Shown in pieces: positions 20,934 to 32,480 of a stretch of DNA of 64,000 nt (position 1 is the first letter of the stretch; every line of letters starts with the position of its first letter). Under the pieces are notes generated by a model. The model was not told the origin of the DNA, searched no databases, and worked only from the letters and a program-made list of their open reading frames with translations. The stretch covers positions 2,812,001-2,876,000 of the forward strand of contig JNLK01000001.1 in assembly GCA_000703065.1 (NCBI GenBank), read 5' to 3'. Source of the stretch: Lachnospiraceae bacterium AC2029 (GTDB taxonomy: Bacteria > Bacillota > Clostridia > Lachnospirales > Lachnospiraceae). A program made the translations under genes and the position numbers.

Positions 20934-23900
20934 ATGAGGAAAATGAGATTTCGAAATATAGTAGCAGTTGCTATGAGCGCACTTCTGATGCTCCCGTCAT
21001 TTGGCGTTTATGCCGGCGAGCTTGATTCAAAGCAGGTCGTGTATGATGAGACATCGGTCGCTGAAGAGCAAAATGAAGATCAGGGCAAGGATCAGACCAT
21101 TGATCTCGGAAATGAATCCTACGGCTATGATTCCATAGTCGAGGATGCAGAGCAGGAGCAGGAATACCGCGACTCCACGGACTATGTGGAGAATACGGTT
21201 GTCTTTTCGGTGCTGGATTATCGAAAGGATGGTGCAAAGGCGGTTTACCTGAATTCCTCAAATGCCGTATGCAAGAATCATAAGCTGAAGGATGTTACCT
21301 TCGTTCTTGAAACGAAGAAATCCGATGCAGAGCAGAAGGATGGCTACACGGCATATCAGGTATTCTACACCGCAACGGTGAAGACGGATGATATCTGGCA
21401 GGTTGTGGATGCGCTTGACGCTGAGGACTCGATCCTCACTGCAGAGCCGGATTTCATCTGGAGTAAAATGGATGAGCCGGATATGACAGAAGCAACAGCA
21501 CTCGAGTCGGAAGTGACGGCTGCAGGCTGGAGTTATACCGACCTTGGGATTACGAATGTCTGGAATAATCTGACTCAGGGAACCGCACCCGGTGAGGGTG
21601 TGGTGGTTGCCGTAATTGATACAGGCGTAGATTATAATCACATCGACCTAAAAGCAAATATGTGGATGAATTCCGAGGAGATTGCCGGAAATGGAGTAGA
21701 TGACGACGGGAATGGATATATCGATGATATCCACGGAATCAACCTGATCGATTCAGCCAAGCAGGGTGACCCAATGGATGATCATGGTCATGGAACACAT
21801 GTTGCTGGTATTATCGCTATGACTCCAGGAAATGGTGGAGGAGTCGGTATTGCCTATGGAGCAAAGATCATGGCTGTCAAGGCAGGACAGGCAAGTGGTT
21901 ACTTTGCTTCGACGGATATCGCAAAAGCAATTCAGTATGCTGCAGCAAATGGCGCGGATGTAATCAATATGTCTTTTGGCGGCACAGGAAAATCCAACCT
22001 GGTTGAAACGGCTCTTGCAGATGCCTTTGGAAGCTGTGTTCTTGTTGCAGCAGCCGGGAATGAAAGCCAACCCACAGCTGATGCACCAAAGGCATTGTAT
22101 CCTCAGAGAATGACTTTTTATCCTGCAGGTTATGAATATGTATTGGGAGTAATGGCATGCAGCGGTGAATCATTGTCTTCTTTTTCAAACTGGGATTATA
22201 TACAGTATAATTATTGTGAGTATGAATTATGTGCTCCGGGTGAACATATTTACAGTACACTACCAAATAACAGATATGCCTATTGGAGTGGTACATCTAT
22301 GGCATCGCCGGTTGTTGCGGCAGGAGCTGCAATTTTAAGAAGAGAGTTTTCCAACAAATCAAAATACACGTCTAGATTTTTGATGGGTCAGTTGACGAGT
22401 GCAACAAAAGACAGCATAAAATACGTTGATAAAGAGGGTGAAGTTCACTTCTATCCAAAGTTAAATATACGTGCTAGTTTGAACAATATGCCCGAACCCA
22501 ATGTTAGATTCGGTGAGATTATCATTTTTGATGATGAAACAATATCTCCGCAAAATAACGGTGATGGTGTTATTCAGGCAGGGGAAACGATTGACGTAGG
22601 CATAGAAGTAAAGAATAATTGGGGATTAGCTACAAATATCAACGTTTATGTGAAAACAAAGCAAAATGGTGTAGACATTCCATACATAGATGTACTAAAC
22701 AATAATATCGAATTGCCAAGTGTCGGAACTTTTTCTACGGTTAATAATGGTTATACTTATTACGATGGTAAACTAGTTGGGGTAAGCAATCCGATTAGAA
22801 TTAAGGTACATGATGAAGCGCCAAATAATTTGTTTCTTAATTTAGAATTTGTGGTTAAAGCTGAAAATGGTTTAGATAGTGGAGATAATAAAATGTACTC
22901 TGCAGATGGATATTACCATCTTGTTGTACAGAATGGTTGTTATCTTCGAGGAACGATAACCGAGGACACTACACTGACGTCAGATAAACTCTGGATTATT
23001 GATAGGTCAGTATTAATCCCTGATGGTGTTACGGTGAACGTTGAAGCCGATACTGATATACAGTTTTACAGTAAAATCAATGATCCGTATGCTTCTGTAT
23101 ATCCGGTTTTTGTTAAAGTACTCGGAAGATTGGTGTTTAACGGAACTCAGGAAAAACCAGTTAATCTTTACCCGTCATCATATTATGAAAACTTCGAGAT
23201 AAACGTACGTAAGGAGGATGAAGGGTATGTTGAAATGAATTATGTAAATATTATCAATCCATATCTTTCTATCTCAAAGGCAAATCATATTTCAACAATT
23301 TCAACAAGTGAGTATCATTCGTGTTATTCGGATGAAGATAGTCCTGGGATAGTTAATCGATTAAAGCGGCAGCCCCGCATTTGTGCTGATTTAATTGAGT
23401 ATTCTAAGCTGACGGATCATTATCTGTGGCAGTTTTCGGGGAACCTTAACTGTGTATTATTAACTAAATCATACTGTTATCTTCCATATTCGCCCCAAGT
23501 GACAATGGATAATACTACATTTTTATTAACGGCCTATAACTATGCTAGGTCATCAGTGATTTCAACGTATGGAATGCATAATAATGCAGTTCTAAACAAT
23601 TTGCGTCGGAGAACCGGAGTTTCCTTTAAAGCCGCAAGCATTGAAGGACAATCAGAACCGGTAGATATGAATGGGAACTTCTGGGGAACTCAAAATTGTG
23701 ATTTGATTTCAAACATGATAATCGATAATGATGATAATGTAAACAATCCCAAATCCGTCTATGCTGAGTGTCTAACCTTGGAGGATGATTTGTCTTCCAT
23801 ATACCCATTCGTTACAGAAGCATATGTTACGGATTCTACAGGGGAACATCGTATATCTGAGGTTGTTAATTGCCAGACGGTCCAAATCCATGTAAAGTTT

Positions 23901-26900
23901 AATCGAGATATGGCACAGGAAACAGAATATAAACCAATGGTGTCATTTGGACCGGATGTACCATACACCGATTGTATAGTAGGTGGTGATTGGGTTTCTT
24001 CCCGTGAGTGGGTGGGTACTGTGAGGATTGACCCGTTTATTAATCAGGGAACGAATTATATACGTATTAAGGATGCCGTGGCAGCAGATGATCATTGGCT
24101 GACCACAGGTGTTGATGAGGAAAGATTCTGTTTTGATATTACAAAAACATCTGCTGAGGCACTTACACTCCAGGGGGTTGGCGGTAGTGCAGAGAATGAT
24201 CTGAACTGGGTTCAGGACGATTATGAAACACTTGCGGGTTACAATATCTATCGCTCAACCACTTATGATAAGAACATAGATGCGGATGAACAGAATTTCA
24301 CCAAGATAAATACATCTATCATCGCGAATGACATATATGAGTATGTCGACGAGGACGTTGAACAGGGGCAGGATTATTACTACTACTTCACGGTTTTGGA
24401 TACAGCATTCCATGAATCCAAGCCCTCAAATGTCGTTAAGTGTACACCGTTGGATGAGGAATCTCCGGTGATTACAACGAAAGCTATACCTACGAAAACA
24501 GTGAATACAGCGGTGCCTGTATCAGCTGAAATAGTTGATAATGTGGAAGTAAAAGGCGCAACACTGTATTATAAGATGGAGGGTGATTCTGAGTGGAAGC
24601 AACTCACCATGAGAAATACGACGAATGACACCTATCAGGCCGTCATTCCTGCGTATGATGTTCTGGAAGGGACACTCCAGTATTACATAACAGCAACGGA
24701 TGGAACTAATACAACCTATGCCGGAACAGAGGATATACCGAATGTGATTAGTGTGATCGGATTTGTGGATGTTGAATCTATTTCCCTTAACGAGACATCC
24801 GTTTCGCTAAAAACGGGAGAAACAAGGACTCTTGAGGCTGAAGTGTATCCGGATAATGCAACAGATAAATCGGTGACATGGACATCGGCGGATCCGGAGA
24901 TTGCAATAGTAGGTGAGGATGGGGTTGTTACTGCGGTAGCGGTTGGTAATACTACCGTGACGGCACAGTCCGCTGATGGACAGGTTTCGGCAATCTGTAA
25001 TGTGACTGTAGAACCGCTTCTTGTCAGTGATTTGACTATCGATACTGAGGAGAAAACTGTATATACGGGAGATACGTTTACTATTACAACAACAACAACT
25101 CCTTCTAATGCCACGGATCCCTCGGTTACATATAAGTCGTCAGATGAAGCGGTTGTTTCTGTAGATGCGAGTGGAAAAGTCACAGCAGTTGGAGTTGGAG
25201 AAGCAGATATCATTGTATCGACAAATGATGCTGGTAATCTGAGTCAGATCTGTAAAGTGACCGTCAATCCGATCGTGGTTAAAACGGTTTCGCTTAGTGA
25301 ATCATCCAAGACTCTTGATGCGGGTGATGAGTTTACTCTGACTGCAAGAGTATATCCTGAGAATGCGACGAATCAAACTGTGACGTGGACGTCAAGTGAT
25401 CCGTCGGTTGCCACGGTTGATAATGGTAAGGTTACTGTAGTCAAGGGTGGCAAAACAACGATTACTGTTGAAACAGAAGACGGTGGATATAAAGCAATTT
25501 GTAACGTGACCGTTAACAGCGTTTTGGTTGAAGATATAACGCTCAGCAAGGACGAGGTTGTTCTGAATGTGGGTGAAACGGAGACGCTGACGGTATCTAT
25601 GGATCCGGAGAGTGCTTCCAATACGACAGTTTTCTGGACAACTGACAATAAGAATGTAGCAACCGTCAGTGGTGGAAAGATTACAGCTGTAGCTCCAGGA
25701 AAGACTTATGTGAAATGTTCTACAACGGATGGAACAGATATCACGAAGATTTGTTCCGTAGAGGTATACGGTAAATTTGAGACGCCGGATAAGCCAATCG
25801 TTCAGTCGAAGTCACTCACATCTGTCACGCTAAAGTCTGTGGCAGGTGCGCAATATAGCATGGACGGTACGACCTGGACCGAGAGCAATACATTTACCGG
25901 ACTTACAGAGAATACGGAGTATTCGTTCTACATTAGGATGAAGGCGGATGGTTATTATCGTGAAAGTGATTCAAGTGAGGCAAGCGTTGTCAAAACGGAT
26001 GAGAGCTTTATAACAATCACCGGTATCGAGTTGAATAAGAGCGAGCTCGAGATGATGGTAGATGACAGCAAAGCGTTGACCGCTACACTTGAGCCGGCAG
26101 ATCCTTCGAATGCTGAATTGAAGTGGAGTAGTACAAATCCGTCGGTTGCCACTGTAGATCAAATCGGTAAGGTAACTGCAAAGAGTATCGGCCTCACATA
26201 TATCATGTGCAAAACGATGGATGGAAGTGAGAAGACGGCTGTATGTGCAGTAAAGGTATATGATCAGTTTGAGGCTCCGGATAGTTTTGAAACAAGTGAT
26301 GTTACAGAAAAGTCCATTTCCATTCTTCCGATAGAAGGTTGTGAATACAAGATCGGTAATGGCGTATGGTCGGATGATGCGACATTTGACCGGTTAGGCA
26401 TTAATACAGAATATGTAATCTCCGTGAGAAGAGCTGCATCCGGATATCATAAGGCGAGCGAACCCCTGACACGAACGATTAAGACACTTGATCATACTCC
26501 GGGAGATTGGATAGTACAGAATAGTGCGTCTTGTCTGGCGGATGGATTAAAGATTAAGCAGTGTACAGAGTGTGGAACAACTGTTGATATGGAAGTGATT
26601 CCGGCAACGAACCATTTGGAAGTTGTTGATCCGGCAGTAGAGCCGACCTGTACAAAGACCGGCTTGACACAGGGAAGCCATTGCTCAATATGTAACACAG
26701 TAATCATTAAGCAGAATGTGGTTCCGGCAAAGGGACATAAAGAAGCAGTTGATCCGGCAGTTGAGGCAACATGTATGAAATCCGGATTGAGTGAAGGAAT
26801 CCACTGTTCGGTATGCGATGAAGTAATCGTGGCACAGGAGACAATTCCTGCTAAGGGCCATATGGCTGTAATCGATCCGGCTGTAGCTGCAACATGCACA

Positions 26901-29075
26901 GATACAGGATTAACAGCAGGTTGTCACTGCTCCGTATGTGATACTATTCTGGTTCCGCAGACGGAGGTAGAGGCCAAAGGACATACAGAAGTGATAGACC
27001 CGGCGGTAGAACCGACTTGCTCGAAGAGTGGCCTGACGCAGGGAAGCCACTGCTCAGTATGTAATGCGATTCTGGTAGAACAGGAAGAAGTTACAGTAAA
27101 GGATCATACAGAAGTGATAGATCCGGCAGTAGAACCGACCTGCACGAAGGCTGGCCTGACGCAGGGAAGTCATTGTTCAGTATGTAAAACAGTTATCATT
27201 AAGCAGAATGTAGTTCCAGCAAAGGGGCATACAGAAGTTGTTGATCCTGCGGTTGAGGCAACATGTACGAAATCCGGATTAAGTGAAGGAATCCACTGTT
27301 CTGTATGCAACGAAATAATCGTGGCACAGGAGACGGTTCCTGCTAAGGGCCATATAGCAACAATCGATCCGGCTGTAGCTGCAACATGCACAGATACAGG
27401 CTTAACAGCGGGTTGTCACTGCTCGGTATGTGATACCGTTCTGGTTCCGCAGATGGAAGTAGAGGCCAAAGGACATACAGAAGTGATAGATCCGGCAGTA
27501 GAACCTACGTGCGCGAAGAGTGGTCTGACGCAGGGAAGCCACTGCTCAGTATGTAATGCGATTCTGGTAGAACAGGAAGAAATTGCAGCAAAGGATCATA
27601 CAGTGGTTGTTGATCCGGCAGTAGAACCGACATGTACGAAGCCTGGCCTGACGATGGGAAGTCACTGCTCAGTATGTAATGCAATTCTGGTAGAACAGGA
27701 AGAGGTTGCAGTGAAGGATCATACAGAAGTTATCGATCCGGCAGTCGAGCCGACCTGCACATCCACCGGTTTGACGGAAGGAAAGCATTGTGCTGAATGC
27801 GGAGCAGTCATTAAGAAGCAGGAAATCCTGCCGCAGGCAGACCATAACTGGGGAGAACAGAATGTGATCCTTGAGCCATCCTGTGTTCGAAGTGGAATCG
27901 CAAGCTATGAATGTACCGATTGCGGAGAGAATAAGATATTTATCATTGAAGCAAAAGGACATTCCGTTGTTGTTGATAAGGCGGTTAAAGCCACATGCAC
28001 AGAACCTGGTTTGACGGAAGGCAAACACTGTGAAACCTGCGGTGAGGTCTTTGTGATCCAGAATGAGATTCCGGCATCGGGACATTCCTTCGGTGAATGG
28101 ACCCCATGTGAGGATGATGAGGAAATGAATGAACGGGTATGCGAGGTTTGCGGCGAGAAGGAGAAGAGCGCACACCGCTGGGATGATGGTGTGGTTGAAA
28201 CCAAAGCAACCTGTGTTCAGGACGGCAAGATGATCTTCACGTGTGAGGATTGTAAAAAAACAAAGAGTACAGTAATCCCTGCAACAGGACATGAATGGGA
28301 TGGAGGAAAGGAAACGAAGGCTCCCACATGCGAGGGCATCGGAGAGAGAACCTTCACCTGTACAGAATGTGGAGAAACAAGAAAGGAAGACATACCTGCA
28401 CTTGGACATCATATCGTGATCGATCCTGCCGTGCCTGAGACAGAAGATGCATGCGGAAACACCGAAGGATCACATTGCGATGTCTGTGGTATGATTCAGG
28501 TTGAGCCGAAAGTTGTTGGATGGATCCAAGAGAATAAGGTATGGTATCACACAGATGTGAATGGTGAGAAACAAACCGGTTTCGTTACGATATTTGACAA
28601 GCGTTACTACTTTGATGCTGAAGGCAGGATGCTGACAGGTGTCCAGAAGATTGAAGGAAAGACCTACTGCTTCACTTCAAAGGGAGTGATGCGGACCGGA
28701 TGGCTCTCCAAGGGCGATAAGTGGTACTACTTGAATCCGACCACCGGAGCAATGGTGACAGGCGCCAAGACCATCAAGGGCAAGACCTATTACTTCAATT
28801 CCAAGGGAGTCATGCAGGTTGGCTGGCTGACGCTGAAGGGAAAGAAATACTACATGAATGAAGATGGGACCATGCATACTGGTTGGAAGAAGCTGGACGG
28901 AAAATGGTACCGGTTCAATGCCAAGGGTGTGATGATCACCGGCTGGACCAGGTACAAAAACAACTGGTATTATCTGGATGAGAACGGCGTGATGGTGCTG
29001 AACTGTGAACTGGAAATCGAAGGAACGGTATATGTATTTAACAGCAAGGGCATCTGCACAAATCCGGAAGGTTGA
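20934..29075 (+). CDS. Giant secreted S8 (subtilisin-like) protease with Ig-like, Cys-rich and wall-binding repeats
   Basis: A 2713-residue surface protein. The signal peptide ends near residue 27 (GVYA-GE). A propeptide-like region spans about 85-185. The S8 catalytic domain spans about 195-490 with Asp229 (VIDTGVDYNH), His286 (HGHGTHVAG) and Ser455 (SGTSMASP), all intact. A less recognisable region (500-1060) includes a CARDB-like segment. An Fn3-like segment lies near 1080, and about five Big_2-like domains lie between 1278 and 1780, interspersed with Fn3-like segments. Ten 41-residue cysteine-containing repeats occupy 1894-2303, with diverged copies to about 2520. Choline-binding-like wall repeats run from about 2526 to the end. 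There is no LPxTG motif, so attachment is probably by the C-terminal repeats. AGGAGAGG precedes the ATG. Expression is probably set by the c-di-GMP riboswitch. Confidence 0.9.
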   Translation: MRKMRFRNIVAVAMSALLMLPSFGVYAGELDSKQVVYDETSVAEEQNEDQGKDQTIDLGNESYGYDSIVEDAEQEQEYRDSTDYVENTVVFSVLDYRKDGAKAVYLNSSNAVCKNHKLKDVTFVLETKKSDAEQKDGYTAYQVFYTATVKTDDIWQVVDALDAEDSILTAEPDFIWSKMDEPDMTEATALESEVTAAGWSYTDLGITNVWNNLTQGTAPGEGVVVAVIDTGVDYNHIDLKANMWMNSEEIAGNGVDDDGNGYIDDIHGINLIDSAKQGDPMDDHGHGTHVAGIIAMTPGNGGGVGIAYGAKIMAVKAGQASGYFASTDIAKAIQYAAANGADVINMSFGGTGKSNLVETALADAFGSCVLVAAAGNESQPTADAPKALYPQRMTFYPAGYEYVLGVMACSGESLSSFSNWDYIQYNYCEYELCAPGEHIYSTLPNNRYAYWSGTSMASPVVAAGAAILRREFSNKSKYTSRFLMGQLTSATKDSIKYVDKEGEVHFYPKLNIRASLNNMPEPNVRFGEIIIFDDETISPQNNGDGVIQAGETIDVGIEVKNNWGLATNINVYVKTKQNGVDIPYIDVLNNNIELPSVGTFSTVNNGYTYYDGKLVGVSNPIRIKVHDEAPNNLFLNLEFVVKAENGLDSGDNKMYSADGYYHLVVQNGCYLRGTITEDTTLTSDKLWIIDRSVLIPDGVTVNVEADTDIQFYSKINDPYASVYPVFVKVLGRLVFNGTQEKPVNLYPSSYYENFEINVRKEDEGYVEMNYVNIINPYLSISKANHISTISTSEYHSCYSDEDSPGIVNRLKRQPRICADLIEYSKLTDHYLWQFSGNLNCVLLTKSYCYLPYSPQVTMDNTTFLLTAYNYARSSVISTYGMHNNAVLNNLRRRTGVSFKAASIEGQSEPVDMNGNFWGTQNCDLISNMIIDNDDNVNNPKSVYAECLTLEDDLSSIYPFVTEAYVTDSTGEHRISEVVNCQTVQIHVKFNRDMAQETEYKPMVSFGPDVPYTDCIVGGDWVSSREWVGTVRIDPFINQGTNYIRIKDAVAADDHWLTTGVDEERFCFDITKTSAEALTLQGVGGSAENDLNWVQDDYETLAGYNIYRSTTYDKNIDADEQNFTKINTSIIANDIYEYVDEDVEQGQDYYYYFTVLDTAFHESKPSNVVKCTPLDEESPVITTKAIPTKTVNTAVPVSAEIVDNVEVKGATLYYKMEGDSEWKQLTMRNTTNDTYQAVIPAYDVLEGTLQYYITATDGTNTTYAGTEDIPNVISVIGFVDVESISLNETSVSLKTGETRTLEAEVYPDNATDKSVTWTSADPEIAIVGEDGVVTAVAVGNTTVTAQSADGQVSAICNVTVEPLLVSDLTIDTEEKTVYTGDTFTITTTTTPSNATDPSVTYKSSDEAVVSVDASGKVTAVGVGEADIIVSTNDAGNLSQICKVTVNPIVVKTVSLSESSKTLDAGDEFTLTARVYPENATNQTVTWTSSDPSVATVDNGKVTVVKGGKTTITVETEDGGYKAICNVTVNSVLVEDITLSKDEVVLNVGETETLTVSMDPESASNTTVFWTTDNKNVATVSGGKITAVAPGKTYVKCSTTDGTDITKICSVEVYGKFETPDKPIVQSKSLTSVTLKSVAGAQYSMDGTTWTESNTFTGLTENTEYSFYIRMKADGYYRESDSSEASVVKTDESFITITGIELNKSELEMMVDDSKALTATLEPADPSNAELKWSSTNPSVATVDQIGKVTAKSIGLTYIMCKTMDGSEKTAVCAVKVYDQFEAPDSFETSDVTEKSISILPIEGCEYKIGNGVWSDDATFDRLGINTEYVISVRRAASGYHKASEPLTRTIKTLDHTPGDWIVQNSASCLADGLKIKQCTECGTTVDMEVIPATNHLEVVDPAVEPTCTKTGLTQGSHCSICNTVIIKQNVVPAKGHKEAVDPAVEATCMKSGLSEGIHCSVCDEVIVAQETIPAKGHMAVIDPAVAATCTDTGLTAGCHCSVCDTILVPQTEVEAKGHTEVIDPAVEPTCSKSGLTQGSHCSVCNAILVEQEEVTVKDHTEVIDPAVEPTCTKAGLTQGSHCSVCKTVIIKQNVVPAKGHTEVVDPAVEATCTKSGLSEGIHCSVCNEIIVAQETVPAKGHIATIDPAVAATCTDTGLTAGCHCSVCDTVLVPQMEVEAKGHTEVIDPAVEPTCAKSGLTQGSHCSVCNAILVEQEEIAAKDHTVVVDPAVEPTCTKPGLTMGSHCSVCNAILVEQEEVAVKDHTEVIDPAVEPTCTSTGLTEGKHCAECGAVIKKQEILPQADHNWGEQNVILEPSCVRSGIASYECTDCGENKIFIIEAKGHSVVVDKAVKATCTEPGLTEGKHCETCGEVFVIQNEIPASGHSFGEWTPCEDDEEMNERVCEVCGEKEKSAHRWDDGVVETKATCVQDGKMIFTCEDCKKTKSTVIPATGHEWDGGKETKAPTCEGIGERTFTCTECGETRKEDIPALGHHIVIDPAVPETEDACGNTEGSHCDVCGMIQVEPKVVGWIQENKVWYHTDVNGEKQTGFVTIFDKRYYFDAEGRMLTGVQKIEGKTYCFTSKGVMRTGWLSKGDKWYYLNPTTGAMVTGAKTIKGKTYYFNSKGVMQVGWLTLKGKKYYMNEDGTMHTGWKKLDGKWYRFNAKGVMITGWTRYKNNWYYLDENGVMVLNCELEIEGTVYVFNSKGICTNPEG
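26613..27842 (+). repeat. Ten tandem 123-bp units containing a 492-bp block duplication
   Basis: Each unit encodes 41 residues of the pattern H-EVIDPAVEPTC-GL-G-HCSVC. Units 1-4 (26613-27104) and units 5-8 (27105-27596) match each other in order, so a four-unit block was duplicated once. Units 9 and 10 (27597-27842) follow, then diverged copies. Each unit keeps three cysteines, C...HCxxC, which may bind a metal or form disulfides. Confidence 0.92.
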
Positions 29076-29247: not shown

Positions 29248-29320
29248 ACGAATGCTTATTTTTGATTGTGGGATCGTAAAGAATAATTGTCCAATCATTT
29301 TTCGTATCTGGCTAAATCTC

Positions 29321-29373
29321 TTGACAGGTTAGCAATGACTAACTATAATACGATTGGGTTAGTGGATACTAAC
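29321..29373 (+). promoter_or_regulatory. Consensus promoter with two TTAG-N6-CTAA dyads
   Basis: TTGACA (29321-29326), a 17-base spacer and TATAAT (29344-29349) form a perfect sigma-A promoter. One dyad, GTTAG-N6-CTAAC, fills the spacer (29328-29343). A second, GTTAGT-N4-ACTAAC, lies just downstream of the -10 (29358-29373). Their centres are 30 bp apart, near three helical turns. Such a strong promoter with two overlapping operators should be tightly repressed. The TTAG/CTAA half-sites recall DtxR-family metal regulators; this is inference. Confidence 0.75.
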
Positions 29374-29433
29374 TATATCATTTCAAAGATGAAATCGTAG
29401 GGTTTCATGAGAAAGTTGAAGGAGGACGGAAGT

Positions 29434-29754
29434 ATGAGTTGGTCAAAGGTTGGTCTATTTGCACTGGGTACATTGTTTGGAACTGCGGGAATCAAGGTGC
29501 TTTCCTCGAGAGATGCTAAGAAGGTGTATACGCACTGTACGGCAGCGGCTCTGCGTGCGAAGGATTCCGTGATGGATCAGGTTACCACATTGCAGGAGAA
29601 CTGCTCGGACATTTATGCAGATGCAAAGGCGATCAATGAGGAGCGTAAGGCTCAGGATGAGGCGGCGGTGATCGAGGATGAAGCGGCTGCAGAGGAAGCA
29701 GCAGAGGATGCGTCTGCTGAGGCTGCTGCAGAAGAGAACGCAGTTACAGTGTAA
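29434..29754 (+). CDS. Small membrane-associated protein (DUF6110-like) of a metal operon
   Basis: A 106-residue protein: a short hydrophobic N-terminal helix (VGLFALGTLFGTAGIKVL), then a helical, increasingly Ala/Glu-rich acidic tail. I associate the N-terminal pattern with DUF6110 proteins found beside P1B ATPases; this is from memory. The ATG at 29434 follows GAAGGAGG at good spacing; an earlier in-frame ATG at 29407 would include the ribosome site in the coding sequence. It is the first gene of the operon whose second gene is the ATPase, 22 bases on. Confidence 0.7.
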   Translation: MSWSKVGLFALGTLFGTAGIKVLSSRDAKKVYTHCTAAALRAKDSVMDQVTTLQENCSDIYADAKAINEERKAQDEAAVIEDEAAAEEAAEDASAEAAAEENAVTV

Positions 29755-29776
29755 ATGACGGAATATCGAGGCTGTT

Positions 29777-31882
29777 ATGAAATATCGTATATTGCATGAA
29801 TCAAAAGGACGGATCCGGGTGCATCTGCCAATGCAAAGAATGACCTTCCGGCAGGCGGATACCCTGGATTATTACCTGGAAGGCTTTCCGGAGATACGGG
29901 ACCGGAAGGTGTATGAACGTACGGCGGATGCGGTGCTTGTCTACACCTGTACCCGGAATCGGATGATCGAGATCCTGAGGGGCTTTTCGTTTGATAGAGT
30001 ACAGGTTCCGGAAAGTGTCTATGAATCCTCCGGACGTGAGGTGGCAGCGAAATATCGGGACAAGATCGCCATGACAACCATCCTGCATTACGGCAGAAGG
30101 CTGCTGGTTCCCTTCCCGATCCGCAGGATCTGGGATATAGCAAGGGCGCTGCGCTTTGTCTGGCGCGGTCTGAAGACCATTCCCAGCGGACATCTGAAGG
30201 TGGAGCTTCTGGATGCAGCCGCGATCACTGCGGCGATTCTGACAAAGGATTATAAGACCGCATCCGGTGTCATGTACCTTCTGAAGATCGGGGATACTCT
30301 GGAGGAGTGGACCCACAAAAGATCCGTGGATGATCTGGCGCGGAGGATGTCCCTGAACATCGATAAGGTATGGCTGCTCACGGAGCAGGGAGAGGTTCTG
30401 ACGGATGCGACGAAGGTTTCGCTGAATGACCGGGTTGTTGTCCGTATGGGGAATCTCATTCCCTTTGACGGAGAAGTGGACAGCGGAGAAGGTATGGTCA
30501 ATCAGGCTTCCATGACGGGAGAAGCGATCCCAGTCAGCAAGGGGCCCGGTTCGGCTATCTTTGCAGGAACGGTTGTGGAAGAGGGAGAGCTGGTCATCCG
30601 TGTTACGAAGACCAGTGGCTGTGGACGCTTTGATAAGATCGTGAAAATGATCGAAGAGTCCGAGAAACTGAAATCCACGCTGGAAAGCAAGGCGGAACGG
30701 ATGGCGGACCGTCTGGTCCCCTATACCCTTCTGGCATCAGGACTCACCGGTCTTATCAGCAGAAATATCACCAAGGCGGTTTCCGTCCTGATGGTGGATT
30801 ATTCCTGTGCGCTGAAGATGGCCATGCCCATTTCCGTTCTCTCTGCGATACGGGAGGCGGCGGACTATGACATCACGGTGAAGGGCGGCCGGTTCCTGGA
30901 GGCAGTGGCAGAAGCGGATACCATCGTATTTGACAAAACGGGAACCCTTACGAAGGCCAGTCCGAAGCTGGTGAAGGTCGTATCATTTAACGGAGAATCC
31001 GAGGATGAACTGCTGAGACAGGCTGCATGCCTTGAGGAACATTTTCCTCATTCTGTGGCACGGGCAGTGGTGGTTGCCGCAGAAGAAAAGGGACTGACCC
31101 ATGAGGAAATGCATTCCAAGGCAGAGTATATCGTGGCTCACGGCATCGCGTCGGAGATTGACGGCGAGAAGGCAGTGATCGGAAGCTATCACTTTGTCTT
31201 CGAGGATGAAGGAGTGACCCTTCCGGAAGGGGCGGAGGAACAGTTCCGGGATCTTCCGGTGATGTATTCCCATTTGTATTTTGCAAAGGGCGGGAAGCTG
31301 GCTGCCTGTCTTCTGATCGAGGATCCCATGCGGGAAGAAGCGGGAGATGTGGTCAGCAGTCTGAGAGACCTGGGCTTCCGGCATATTGTGATGATGACCG
31401 GGGACAGCGAACGGACGGCAGCGGCCATAGCCGCGGCAGCCGGGATCGAAGAGTACTATTCGGAGGTGCTGCCGGAGGATAAGGCGGGCTTCGTAGAGCG
31501 GGCGAAAGCGGAAGGACGGCATGTCATCATGGTGGGTGACGGGATCAATGATTCACCGGCGCTTTCCGCGGCGGATGCAGGCATCGCCATCAGCGAAGGT
31601 GCGGAGATCGCACGTCAGATCGCGGATATCACCGTGAACTCGTCTCATTTGGAAAGCATCGTAACACTTCGGAAGATCAGCACAAAGCTGATGAAGCGGA
31701 TCCGGTTCAATTACCGGACCATCGTGGGCTTCAATACGGCGCTGATCATGCTGGGGATCGCAGGCGTTCTCCCGCCGGCAACGTCAGCACTTCTGCATAA
31801 CGGGTCTACCATCGCACTGGGACTGAAGAGTATGACACCATTACTGAAGGATGGAAAGGAGAGTAAGGATGAAGAAGCATAA
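29777..31882 (+). CDS. P1B-type metal ATPase with Ser-Cys-Ala transmembrane motif (FezB-like)
   Basis: A 701-residue heavy-metal P-type ATPase. It has an N-terminal domain of about 110 residues without CxxC and an actuator motif TGEAIPVSKG at about 252. The metal-site helix carries DYSCALKMAMP at about 340 instead of the usual CPC. The phosphorylation site DKTGTLT is near 386 and the hinge GDGINDSP near 587. Two C-terminal helices end with STIALGLKSM. The SCA motif points, from memory, to the P1B-6 group that includes FezB of ferrosomes, making iron the likely metal. The acidic small gene upstream and the overlapping 26-codon gene downstream make a compact operon. Confidence 0.85.
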   Translation: MKYRILHESKGRIRVHLPMQRMTFRQADTLDYYLEGFPEIRDRKVYERTADAVLVYTCTRNRMIEILRGFSFDRVQVPESVYESSGREVAAKYRDKIAMTTILHYGRRLLVPFPIRRIWDIARALRFVWRGLKTIPSGHLKVELLDAAAITAAILTKDYKTASGVMYLLKIGDTLEEWTHKRSVDDLARRMSLNIDKVWLLTEQGEVLTDATKVSLNDRVVVRMGNLIPFDGEVDSGEGMVNQASMTGEAIPVSKGPGSAIFAGTVVEEGELVIRVTKTSGCGRFDKIVKMIEESEKLKSTLESKAERMADRLVPYTLLASGLTGLISRNITKAVSVLMVDYSCALKMAMPISVLSAIREAADYDITVKGGRFLEAVAEADTIVFDKTGTLTKASPKLVKVVSFNGESEDELLRQAACLEEHFPHSVARAVVVAAEEKGLTHEEMHSKAEYIVAHGIASEIDGEKAVIGSYHFVFEDEGVTLPEGAEEQFRDLPVMYSHLYFAKGGKLAACLLIEDPMREEAGDVVSSLRDLGFRHIVMMTGDSERTAAAIAAAAGIEEYYSEVLPEDKAGFVERAKAEGRHVIMVGDGINDSPALSAADAGIAISEGAEIARQIADITVNSSHLESIVTLRKISTKLMKRIRFNYRTIVGFNTALIMLGIAGVLPPATSALLHNGSTIALGLKSMTPLLKDGKESKDEEA

Positions 31883-31949
31883 ATTCTTTGCATGGGCAAT
31901 GATCTTCTGTCTTTTGATGACAGTGATCACCGGTTATAAGAAAAAATAG
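31869..31949 (+). CDS. 26-residue membrane peptide overlapping the ATPase gene
   Basis: ATG 31869 lies inside the last codons of the ATPase gene, 8 bases after AAGGAG. It encodes a basic start (MKKHK), a single hydrophobic helix (FFAWAMIFCLLMTVITG) and a basic YKKK end. The good ribosome site, the 14-base overlap and the terminator just after it argue that it is translated. Peptides with this MKKHKFxAW...TGYKxK layout recur, as I remember, after related ATPases. It may be a subunit or regulator of the ATPase or of a membrane compartment. Confidence 0.65.
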   Translation: MKKHKFFAWAMIFCLLMTVITGYKKK

Positions 31950-31974
31950 GTGTGACACAATGTCATTTCATTCT

Positions 31975-32013
31975 ACGGGCTGGCTGCGTAATGCGGCTGG
32001 CTCGTATTTTTTT
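31975..32013 (+). terminator. Terminator of the metal operon
   Basis: A near-continuous stem, ACGGGCTGG... with ...CTGGCTCGT, in which every mismatch is a G-U wobble, followed by seven T residues. It closes the 29434-31949 operon. Confidence 0.75.
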
Positions 32014-32039: not shown

Positions 32040-32480
32040 AACAATATCATCATAGGACGTCCCGAAGCAACGAGAGAGGAAGTAGAAGAAGCGGCAAAAA
32101 AAGCCAGGTGTTATGACTTTATCATGCAAGTGCCGAATGGCTTTGATACCGTGATCGGAGAGGGAGGAGCGTCGCTGTCCGAAGGAGAAAAACAGAGGAT
32201 ATCCATCGCAAGATGTATCCTGAAAGATGCTCCCATAGTAATACTCGATGAAGCAACGGCCAGCGTGGATGCTGATAATGAACGGGCAATACAGGAGGCA
32301 ATATCGGAGCTTTGCAGAGACAAGACACTGCTTGTCATAGCACACAGGCTTAAAACCATTAAGGACGCAGACCAGATAATCGTTATTTCGGATGGTGAGA
32401 TCATAGAGCAGGGAGATCATTCTTCATTGATGGATATGAAAGGAACATATGCCCGTATGGTTTCATTACAGGCAGGTTAG
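32040..32480 (+). pseudogene. C-terminal fragment of an ABC exporter ATPase
   Basis: The frame opens directly after a stop (32037-32039) and reads NNIIIGRPEATREEVEEAA, then the signature LSEGEKQRISIARCIL, Walker B IVILDEATASVD and the H-loop IAHRL. It ends normally at 32480. The membrane domain and Walker A of the roughly 580-residue parent are gone. With no start or ribosome site it is a remnant; an internal ATG at 32124 would yield only half a nucleotide-binding domain. Confidence 0.85.

Follow-up and report, generated by a model that had tools for sequence, protein, structure and literature searches.

What is the role of an operon that joins a metal pump to two small membrane proteins? The operon in question occupies positions 29321-32013 of a 64,000-nucleotide stretch of the Lachnospiraceae bacterium AC2029 genome, which we refer to as the window. 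It encodes a FezA-like protein of the DUF6110 family, a FezB-like P1B-6 ATPase and a membrane micropeptide of 26 amino acids (aa). Our analysis indicates that it is very probably an iron-repressed ferrosome (fez) operon that stores iron in membrane-bound vesicles. This reading is carried by the identities of the genes, the phylogeny of the pump, an operator common to the fez and feo genes, the duplication of the operon, and the conservation and genomic linkage of the peptide. The ferrosome genes themselves are already known from Clostridioides difficile; the new element is the micropeptide.

The ATPase matches TIGR01525 with 481.8 bits (cut-off 346.25), reads DYSCALKMAMP in its fourth transmembrane segment (TM4) and LLHNGST in TM6, and has no CxxC motif within its first 150 residues. 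To place it among relatives, 60 stretches were taken around DUF6110 genes and combined with the two operon copies of the AC2029 genome, giving a set of 62. A P1B ATPase lies directly downstream of DUF6110 in 59 of the 60 stretches from relatives. TM4 carries SCA in 59 of the 61 ATPases read (58 by a script counter, with L093 added from its printed row) and CCA in the other two, and HN is present in TM6 of 59 first open reading frames (ORFs), the remaining two being frame-split with HN in the second ORF.

A tree of 37 rows puts the window pump inside a DUF6110-linked clade (support 100/99) that also includes the C. difficile pumps. The sister of this clade, joined at 96/93, comprises four pumps found in plasmid records of Gram-negative bacteria (Azospirillum, Arcobacter, Vibrio and Cereibacter), and CtpC-like, copper and Zn/Cd pumps fall outside both clades. 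Of the 59 DUF6110-linked pumps that exceed 650 aa (stretches and own genome), this tree includes 18, together with 19 further rows; a second tree with five long-branched rows dropped, holding 13 such pumps and 14 further rows, agrees with it. The FezB sequences of Desulfovibrio magneticus and Rhodopseudomonas palustris are in neither. Approximately unbiased (AU) tests reject a clade of the window pump with CtpC-like pumps (p 9.5e-5) and with Zn/Cd pumps (p 2.0e-9), and both identities are rejected by the trees as well. An ordinary Mn, Zn or Cd exporter is thus a very improbable identity for this protein: it does pass the cadmium-family NCBIfam model TIGR01512 (344.5 bits; cut-off 313.5), but the trees and the AU test against Zn/Cd pumps speak otherwise, as do SCA and HN in place of CPC and the missing N-terminal CxxC. 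The preliminary description of the locus had taken the pump for a P1B-6/FezB ATPase and had set grouping with Mn or Zn exporters against that assignment; the motifs and the clade shared with the C. difficile pump bear the assignment out, and the AU tests against CtpC-like and Zn/Cd pumps reject the grouping.

Control of the operon is indicated by an operator of the form GTTAG-N6-CTAAC, which has 13 sites in the 3.86-Mb genome, compared with one for a reversed control and about 3.8 expected from the base composition of the window. Three of the sites precede feoA-feoA-feoB, one is upstream of a DtxR-family gene and one stands before a gene for an 83-aa HMA-domain protein; each fez operon has two, and the remaining four lie in the island that surrounds a second fez copy. 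The feoA promoter follows the same design, with TTGACA, one base, the operator and TATACT. Because fez and feoAAB have this operator in common, in the same geometry, iron control of the fez operon, probably through a DtxR-family repressor, is well supported at the level of sequence. The protein from the DtxR-family gene (L062:2495-2878), whose upstream intergenic region contains the operator, has PF02742 and PF01325. Among structures it matches MntR chains best, followed by IdeR and DtxR, and a Cys aligns to the MntR Glu, which we take to be the iron-type state of DtxR (Cys102). Among the 62 stretches, the operator is found at most 600 bp upstream of fezA in 14 (12 of the 60 from relatives), and the reversed control in none.

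Fur boxes were also searched for. L071, a distant relative, has a perfect one, and some other stretches have matches of at least 12/15; the window operon has no match at that level. The reversed-palindrome control of this search tells nothing, since reversal leaves a palindrome unchanged, whereas the reversed-string controls of the operator searches are valid. In favour of the ferrosome reading, DtxR-family genes are present in 8 and Fur-family genes in 14 of the 62 stretches (21 distinct stretches). In three relatives (L068, L114 and L096), DtxR-family genes directly adjoin the fez genes, and in L068 a rubrerythrin gene lies downstream as well. The 83-aa HMA-domain protein under a fez-type operator (L064:4002-4253; G000:C1:2144301) is encoded between two very similar genes for 538/539-aa products, and in L120 a similar 85-aa HMA ORF follows fezB at a distance of 1.6 kb, with a ZIP transporter gene in front of it. 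It is possible that the small HMA-domain protein is an iron chaperone of the fez system.

P1B pumps move metal out of the cytosol, and this established property fits a second alternative, in which the operon encodes a plasma-membrane efflux platform like PacL-CtpC: a small scaffold would cluster a pump that expels iron or another metal, and no organelle would form. DUF6110 is indeed related to the DUF1490 PacL proteins according to the available part of PMC9374683, and our profile comparison (hhalign; prob 81, E 1.2e-5) agrees with the published relation; a FezA-like ORF from another genome (L219, described below) also matches DUF1490 weakly. Against this stand the SCA motif in place of CPC, the rejected CtpC-like clade, and the tail of FezA, which is E/A-rich and lacks a C-terminal His cluster. 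The nearest characterised relative, moreover, makes ferrosomes (PMC12574912 and PMC11651100, as far as their available text goes). An operator common to Feo uptake would turn the operon on at low iron, the wrong sense for detoxification; expression in iron starvation and not in excess would argue for storage and against a detoxifying exporter. We therefore regard the efflux platform as an unlikely explanation and an iron-storing ferrosome system as the preferred one.

The same genome contains a paralogous fez operon at G000:C1:3393856-3396478. An aligned block from window position 29320 to 31948, running from the promoter through the peptide gene, is 84% identical between the copies at the nucleotide level. 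The paralogue keeps the promoter-operator layout, the conserved block includes the micropeptide gene, and the two ATPases, both with SCA and HN, are 93% identical, with 207 synonymous and 52 non-synonymous codon differences. The surrounding island (L065 and L066; G000:C1:3384552-3406000) has operators before an alpha/beta hydrolase gene, an ABC transporter pair and an ATC-hydrolase/methyltransferase run, and is possibly an iron-regulated small-molecule pathway.

The micropeptide proved to be a conserved companion of these genes. A profile built from five seeds, with members near fez genes, places the peptide in 21 of the 62 stretches, always on the fez strand. It is encoded before fezA in 17 of them (in two cases overlapping an extended fezA ORF) and after the ATPase in the other four (both AC2029 copies, L109 and L123). 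K2, H4, A8 and G22 are invariant in the 19 aligned rows; the invariance of M1 is partly imposed, since the first residue was written as M even for non-ATG starts (L077, L083 and L099), and L109 and L123 were trimmed. Between the two AC2029 copies, seven of eight base differences fall at third codon positions, with six synonymous codons and one non-synonymous.

Searches of 250 genomes drawn from the family Lachnospiraceae gave 42 peptide matches of at least 40 bits in 41 genomes, all of which carry DUF6110 (background 105/250; P 1.3e-18), and 33 of the 42 matches are within 3 kb of it. These figures are subject to training bias, as 17 of the 41 genomes supplied sequences to the profile; the 24 peptide-positive genomes outside the profile are likewise all DUF6110-positive (P 7.6e-12), with 15 of 24 matches linked within 3 kb (by subtraction). 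Nine of the 42 matches lie farther away, and the surroundings of the five that were read revealed no common partner. One of the 42, in G438, is inside a 316-aa open frame and may be a chance match. A further draw of 398 genomes from the phylum Bacillota yielded DUF6110 in eight and peptide matches of at least 39 bits in four, all among those eight; three of these four belong to the training set. Two weaker matches, of 18-19 bits, are inside open frames of 533 and 693 aa.

Could this ORF instead be a leader peptide, or a chance reading frame with no protein partner? It is very short, and in 17 of the 21 stretches it sits before fezA, where a leader would be expected. It stands behind the ATPase in the remaining four, however, and matches beyond 3 kb of DUF6110 nevertheless occur in DUF6110-positive genomes, which disfavours a leader. 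The variable gene position, the unlinked copies and the third-position bias of the substitutions together point to a trans-acting protein and make a cis-acting leader unlikely. A full two-unit relative of the peptide (see below) further weakens the leader or chance-ORF explanation, to which we assign a low probability. We propose that the peptide is a trans-acting micropeptide of FezB or the ferrosome, possibly a component of the system that has been overlooked.

The two-unit relatives belong to DUF6219 (PF19727). The AC2029 peptides score 21.0 and 21.4 bits against this model (cut-off 27), covering positions 29-50 of its 69 aa. True DUF6219 proteins hold two units, whereas the window peptide corresponds to a single one; a PF19727 search of the AC2029 genome returned no match, and none in a control either, the model scoring a single unit below its cut-off. 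Many weaker matches of the peptide profile are two-unit ORFs of about 60-84 aa; of these, L210 was tested and proved to be a full DUF6219 protein (144.7 bits). DUF6219 is mentioned in none of the literature searched. Seven two-unit ORFs of this type in DUF6110-positive genomes (L205 and L209-L214) are found beside a Bcp-type peroxiredoxin gene, and six of the seven also beside YaaA. Five of the seven have a PerR-like (Fur-family) or rubrerythrin gene nearby as well, as judged by reading, with the L210 and L209 examples confirmed by Pfam.

As a sequence probe, the peptide has already exposed a fez-like operon that the DUF6110 model missed. Among genomes without a DUF6110 match, the top peptide match (38.3 bits; G418, stretch L219) lies directly before a divergent FezA-like ORF and a P1B ATPase. 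The FezA-like ORF scores 49.8 bits against our own DUF6110 profile, and the one Pfam match is DUF1490, below threshold (23.1 bits; cut-off 28.4). The ATPase has SCA and HN and scores 627 bits with the window pump.

KdpF and sarcolipin are small membrane peptides of P-type pumps. By analogy we would guess that the micropeptide binds FezB in a comparable way: a membrane peptide of about 30 aa is tied to a P-type pump in both cases, and no sequence relation is claimed. More broadly, and tentatively, it could be an undescribed micropeptide dedicated to Gram-positive ferrosomes, acting in trans as a FezB/FezA subunit to regulate the loading of iron or the shaping of membrane. Its kinship, as a single unit, with the two-unit DUF6219 proteins, whose genes neighbour those for peroxiredoxin, YaaA and PerR-like (Fur-family) proteins, would then link ferrosomes to peroxide defence; we hold this full proposal to be somewhat less probable than its opposite.

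Several observations weigh against a ferrosome operon with a micropeptide component, in addition to the cadmium-family match of the pump. The operator is missing from the 600 bp upstream of fezA in 48 of the 60 stretches from relatives, and the frequency of DtxR- and Fur-family genes given above has no measured background rate. One stretch, L069 (G069:C7, one of two DUF6110 copies there), has the peptide and no ATPase. The family draw contained one further genome from the genus of AC2029, G557, and it gave no DUF6110 match. The micropeptide was found neither in the C. difficile fez regions nor anywhere else in two C. difficile genomes searched whole, where the highest score was 14.7 bits, and no FezC-like cytochrome was seen among the ORFs of the operon or of the C. 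difficile locus, which were read without a dedicated search.

Taking both sides together, the ferrosome assignment made in the preliminary description holds for gene family and regulation, and the organelle itself is the predicted part. Its suggestion that metal-responsive dyads fit iron control agrees with the operators at feoAAB and upstream of the DtxR-family gene. The operon it recognised is real, with a second copy that it had missed; the tiny membrane peptide is likewise present, and its standing as a conserved companion, beyond the reach of that description, emerged only here.

From these features we infer the direction and metal of transport, vesicle formation, the identity of the repressor and the role of the peptide, and propose the following course of events. 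When iron is scarce, a DtxR-family repressor would leave the two operators, which overlap or follow the promoter, so that fezA, fezB and the micropeptide would be produced alongside Feo, the importer of ferrous iron. FezB and FezA would sit in a membrane that turns into vesicles, FezA serving as a membrane-anchored platform or scaffold. Once iron returns, FezB would pump Fe(II) into the vesicles and so build up a membrane-bound iron store. The 26-aa peptide would be a small trans-acting membrane subunit, most likely one that binds and tunes FezB.

Ferrosomes are known from few organisms. Given DUF6110 in 105 of the 250 family genomes, and this pump behind it in 59 of the 60 stretches examined, organelles for iron storage may be common in the Lachnospiraceae, under a switch shared with the uptake of ferrous iron. 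Should the micropeptide be part of the ferrosome, it would offer a small, easily removed handle on the tuning of an organelle pump.

The window operon is a single compact transcription unit of promoter, two operators, fezA, fezB, peptide gene and terminator (Table 1), and each part of the layout given in the preliminary description was found.

Table 1. Features of the fez operon, in window coordinates.
Feature	Position	Strand	Remarks
Sigma-70 promoter, TTGACA-17-TATAAT	29321..29349	+	12/12 consensus matches; TTGACA begins at 29321, TATAAT at 29344-29349, 17-base spacer
Operator 1, GTTAGCAATGACTAAC	29328..29343	.	Fills the -35/-10 spacer
Operator 2, GTTAGTGGATACTAAC	29358..29373	.	30 bp downstream of operator 1; 30-bp spacing also in the paralogue
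fezA-like gene (DUF6110)	29434..29754	+	PF19605, E 3.2e-38; ORF extendable to 29407
fezB-like P1B-6 ATPase gene, 701 aa	29777..31882	+	TIGR01525, SCA/HN motifs, trees, AU tests
26-aa membrane micropeptide gene, MKKHKFFAWAMIFCLLMTVITGYKKK	31869..31949	+	Conserved family; first 14 bases overlap the end of fezB
Intrinsic terminator	31974..32013	+	15-pair stem (31974-32006), then T7

The ATG at 29434 is a likelier start for fezA than 29407, being preceded by AGGAGG and equal to the start of the paralogue ORF. By inspection, the DUF6110 protein has a single N-terminal hydrophobic stretch and a charged tail. The terminator region folds with a z-score of -4.19; the terminator scan found two, a number no higher than in shuffles (mean 2.1). 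Directly upstream of the operon (20934-29075, +) is an ORF of 2713 aa in which reading suggests a protease part resembling subtilisin, Ig-like repeats, numerous repeats that contain Cys, and repeats of the choline-binding type at the C-terminus. Downstream (32040-32480, +) lies a remnant of an ABC exporter that retains the C-terminal ATPase part and lacks the membrane part; it is 54% identical over 141 aa to an ABC gene in the island of the second fez copy.

Among known systems, the closest comparison is with C. difficile. Two C. difficile genomes, located through a 16S pattern, each have exactly one DUF6110 match, with the best ATPase match adjoining it; these pumps score 796 and 785 bits with the window pump (53% and 52% identity), and the next best pump 243 bits. 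As the only DUF6110 match of each genome, beside the best ATPase match and in keeping with the described gene pair, this locus can be equated with CD630_05910-05920, given as fezAB in the available text of PMC11651100. Table 1 of PMC6311696, in the part available, lists 05910 as an ATPase; 05920 is entered there as a hypothetical protein, and a Fur box is marked for it. The same source gives log2 RNA/protein changes in low relative to high iron of 2.41/6.77 for 05910 and 2.04/5.21 for 05920, and in a fur mutant of 2.80/7.54 and 1.93/5.64. According to the accessible portion of a review (PMC12574912), ferrosomes need FezA and FezB, both Fur-repressed. The window operon and C. difficile fezXAB (CD630_05920-05910, taken as fezA-fezB) thus share DUF6110 followed by a P1B-6 ATPase, with pumps that are 53% identical and in one clade, and iron repression, published for C. 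difficile and predicted here. They differ in that the C. difficile genes are Fur-repressed, whereas the window operon has a DtxR-type operator, and in that AC2029 has two operon copies, whereas each C. difficile genome has one DUF6110 match and no detected micropeptide. The fezX of C. difficile, named in one review as far as its available text goes, could conceivably be the counterpart of the micropeptide, although neither of the two C. difficile genomes showed a peptide homologue.

Gram-negative fez clusters, described for D. magneticus and R. palustris (RPA2333-2338) in sources available in part, contain a P1B-6 pump and include a FezC cytochrome. They carry extra genes relative to the window operon, a comparison that for these two organisms draws on the literature and not on their sequences. 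Fez-like multi-gene clusters with SCA/HN pumps were found in Azospirillum brasilense p3 (L163) and the Arcobacter plasmid p133_DSM_115972 (L164), and we infer that both are fez clusters. HMA2-labelled proteins occur in the Azospirillum cluster and YtxH-labelled proteins in both, the YtxH protein being weakly similar to DUF6110 (prob 77). The Arcobacter cluster also holds a DUF2202 gene.

The PacL1-CtpC zinc efflux platform (DUF1490 and a P1B6-like ATPase) resembles the window operon in a small anchored protein encoded before the pump and in HN in TM6. It differs in having CPC in TM4, a role in zinc detoxification and a separate clade; the window pump has SCA, its partner is assigned by Pfam to DUF6110 and not DUF1490, and both CPC and membership of the CtpC-like clade are missing. 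The window operon instead belongs to the Gram-positive fez kind, within which it is set apart by a DtxR-type operator inside the promoter and by the micropeptide.

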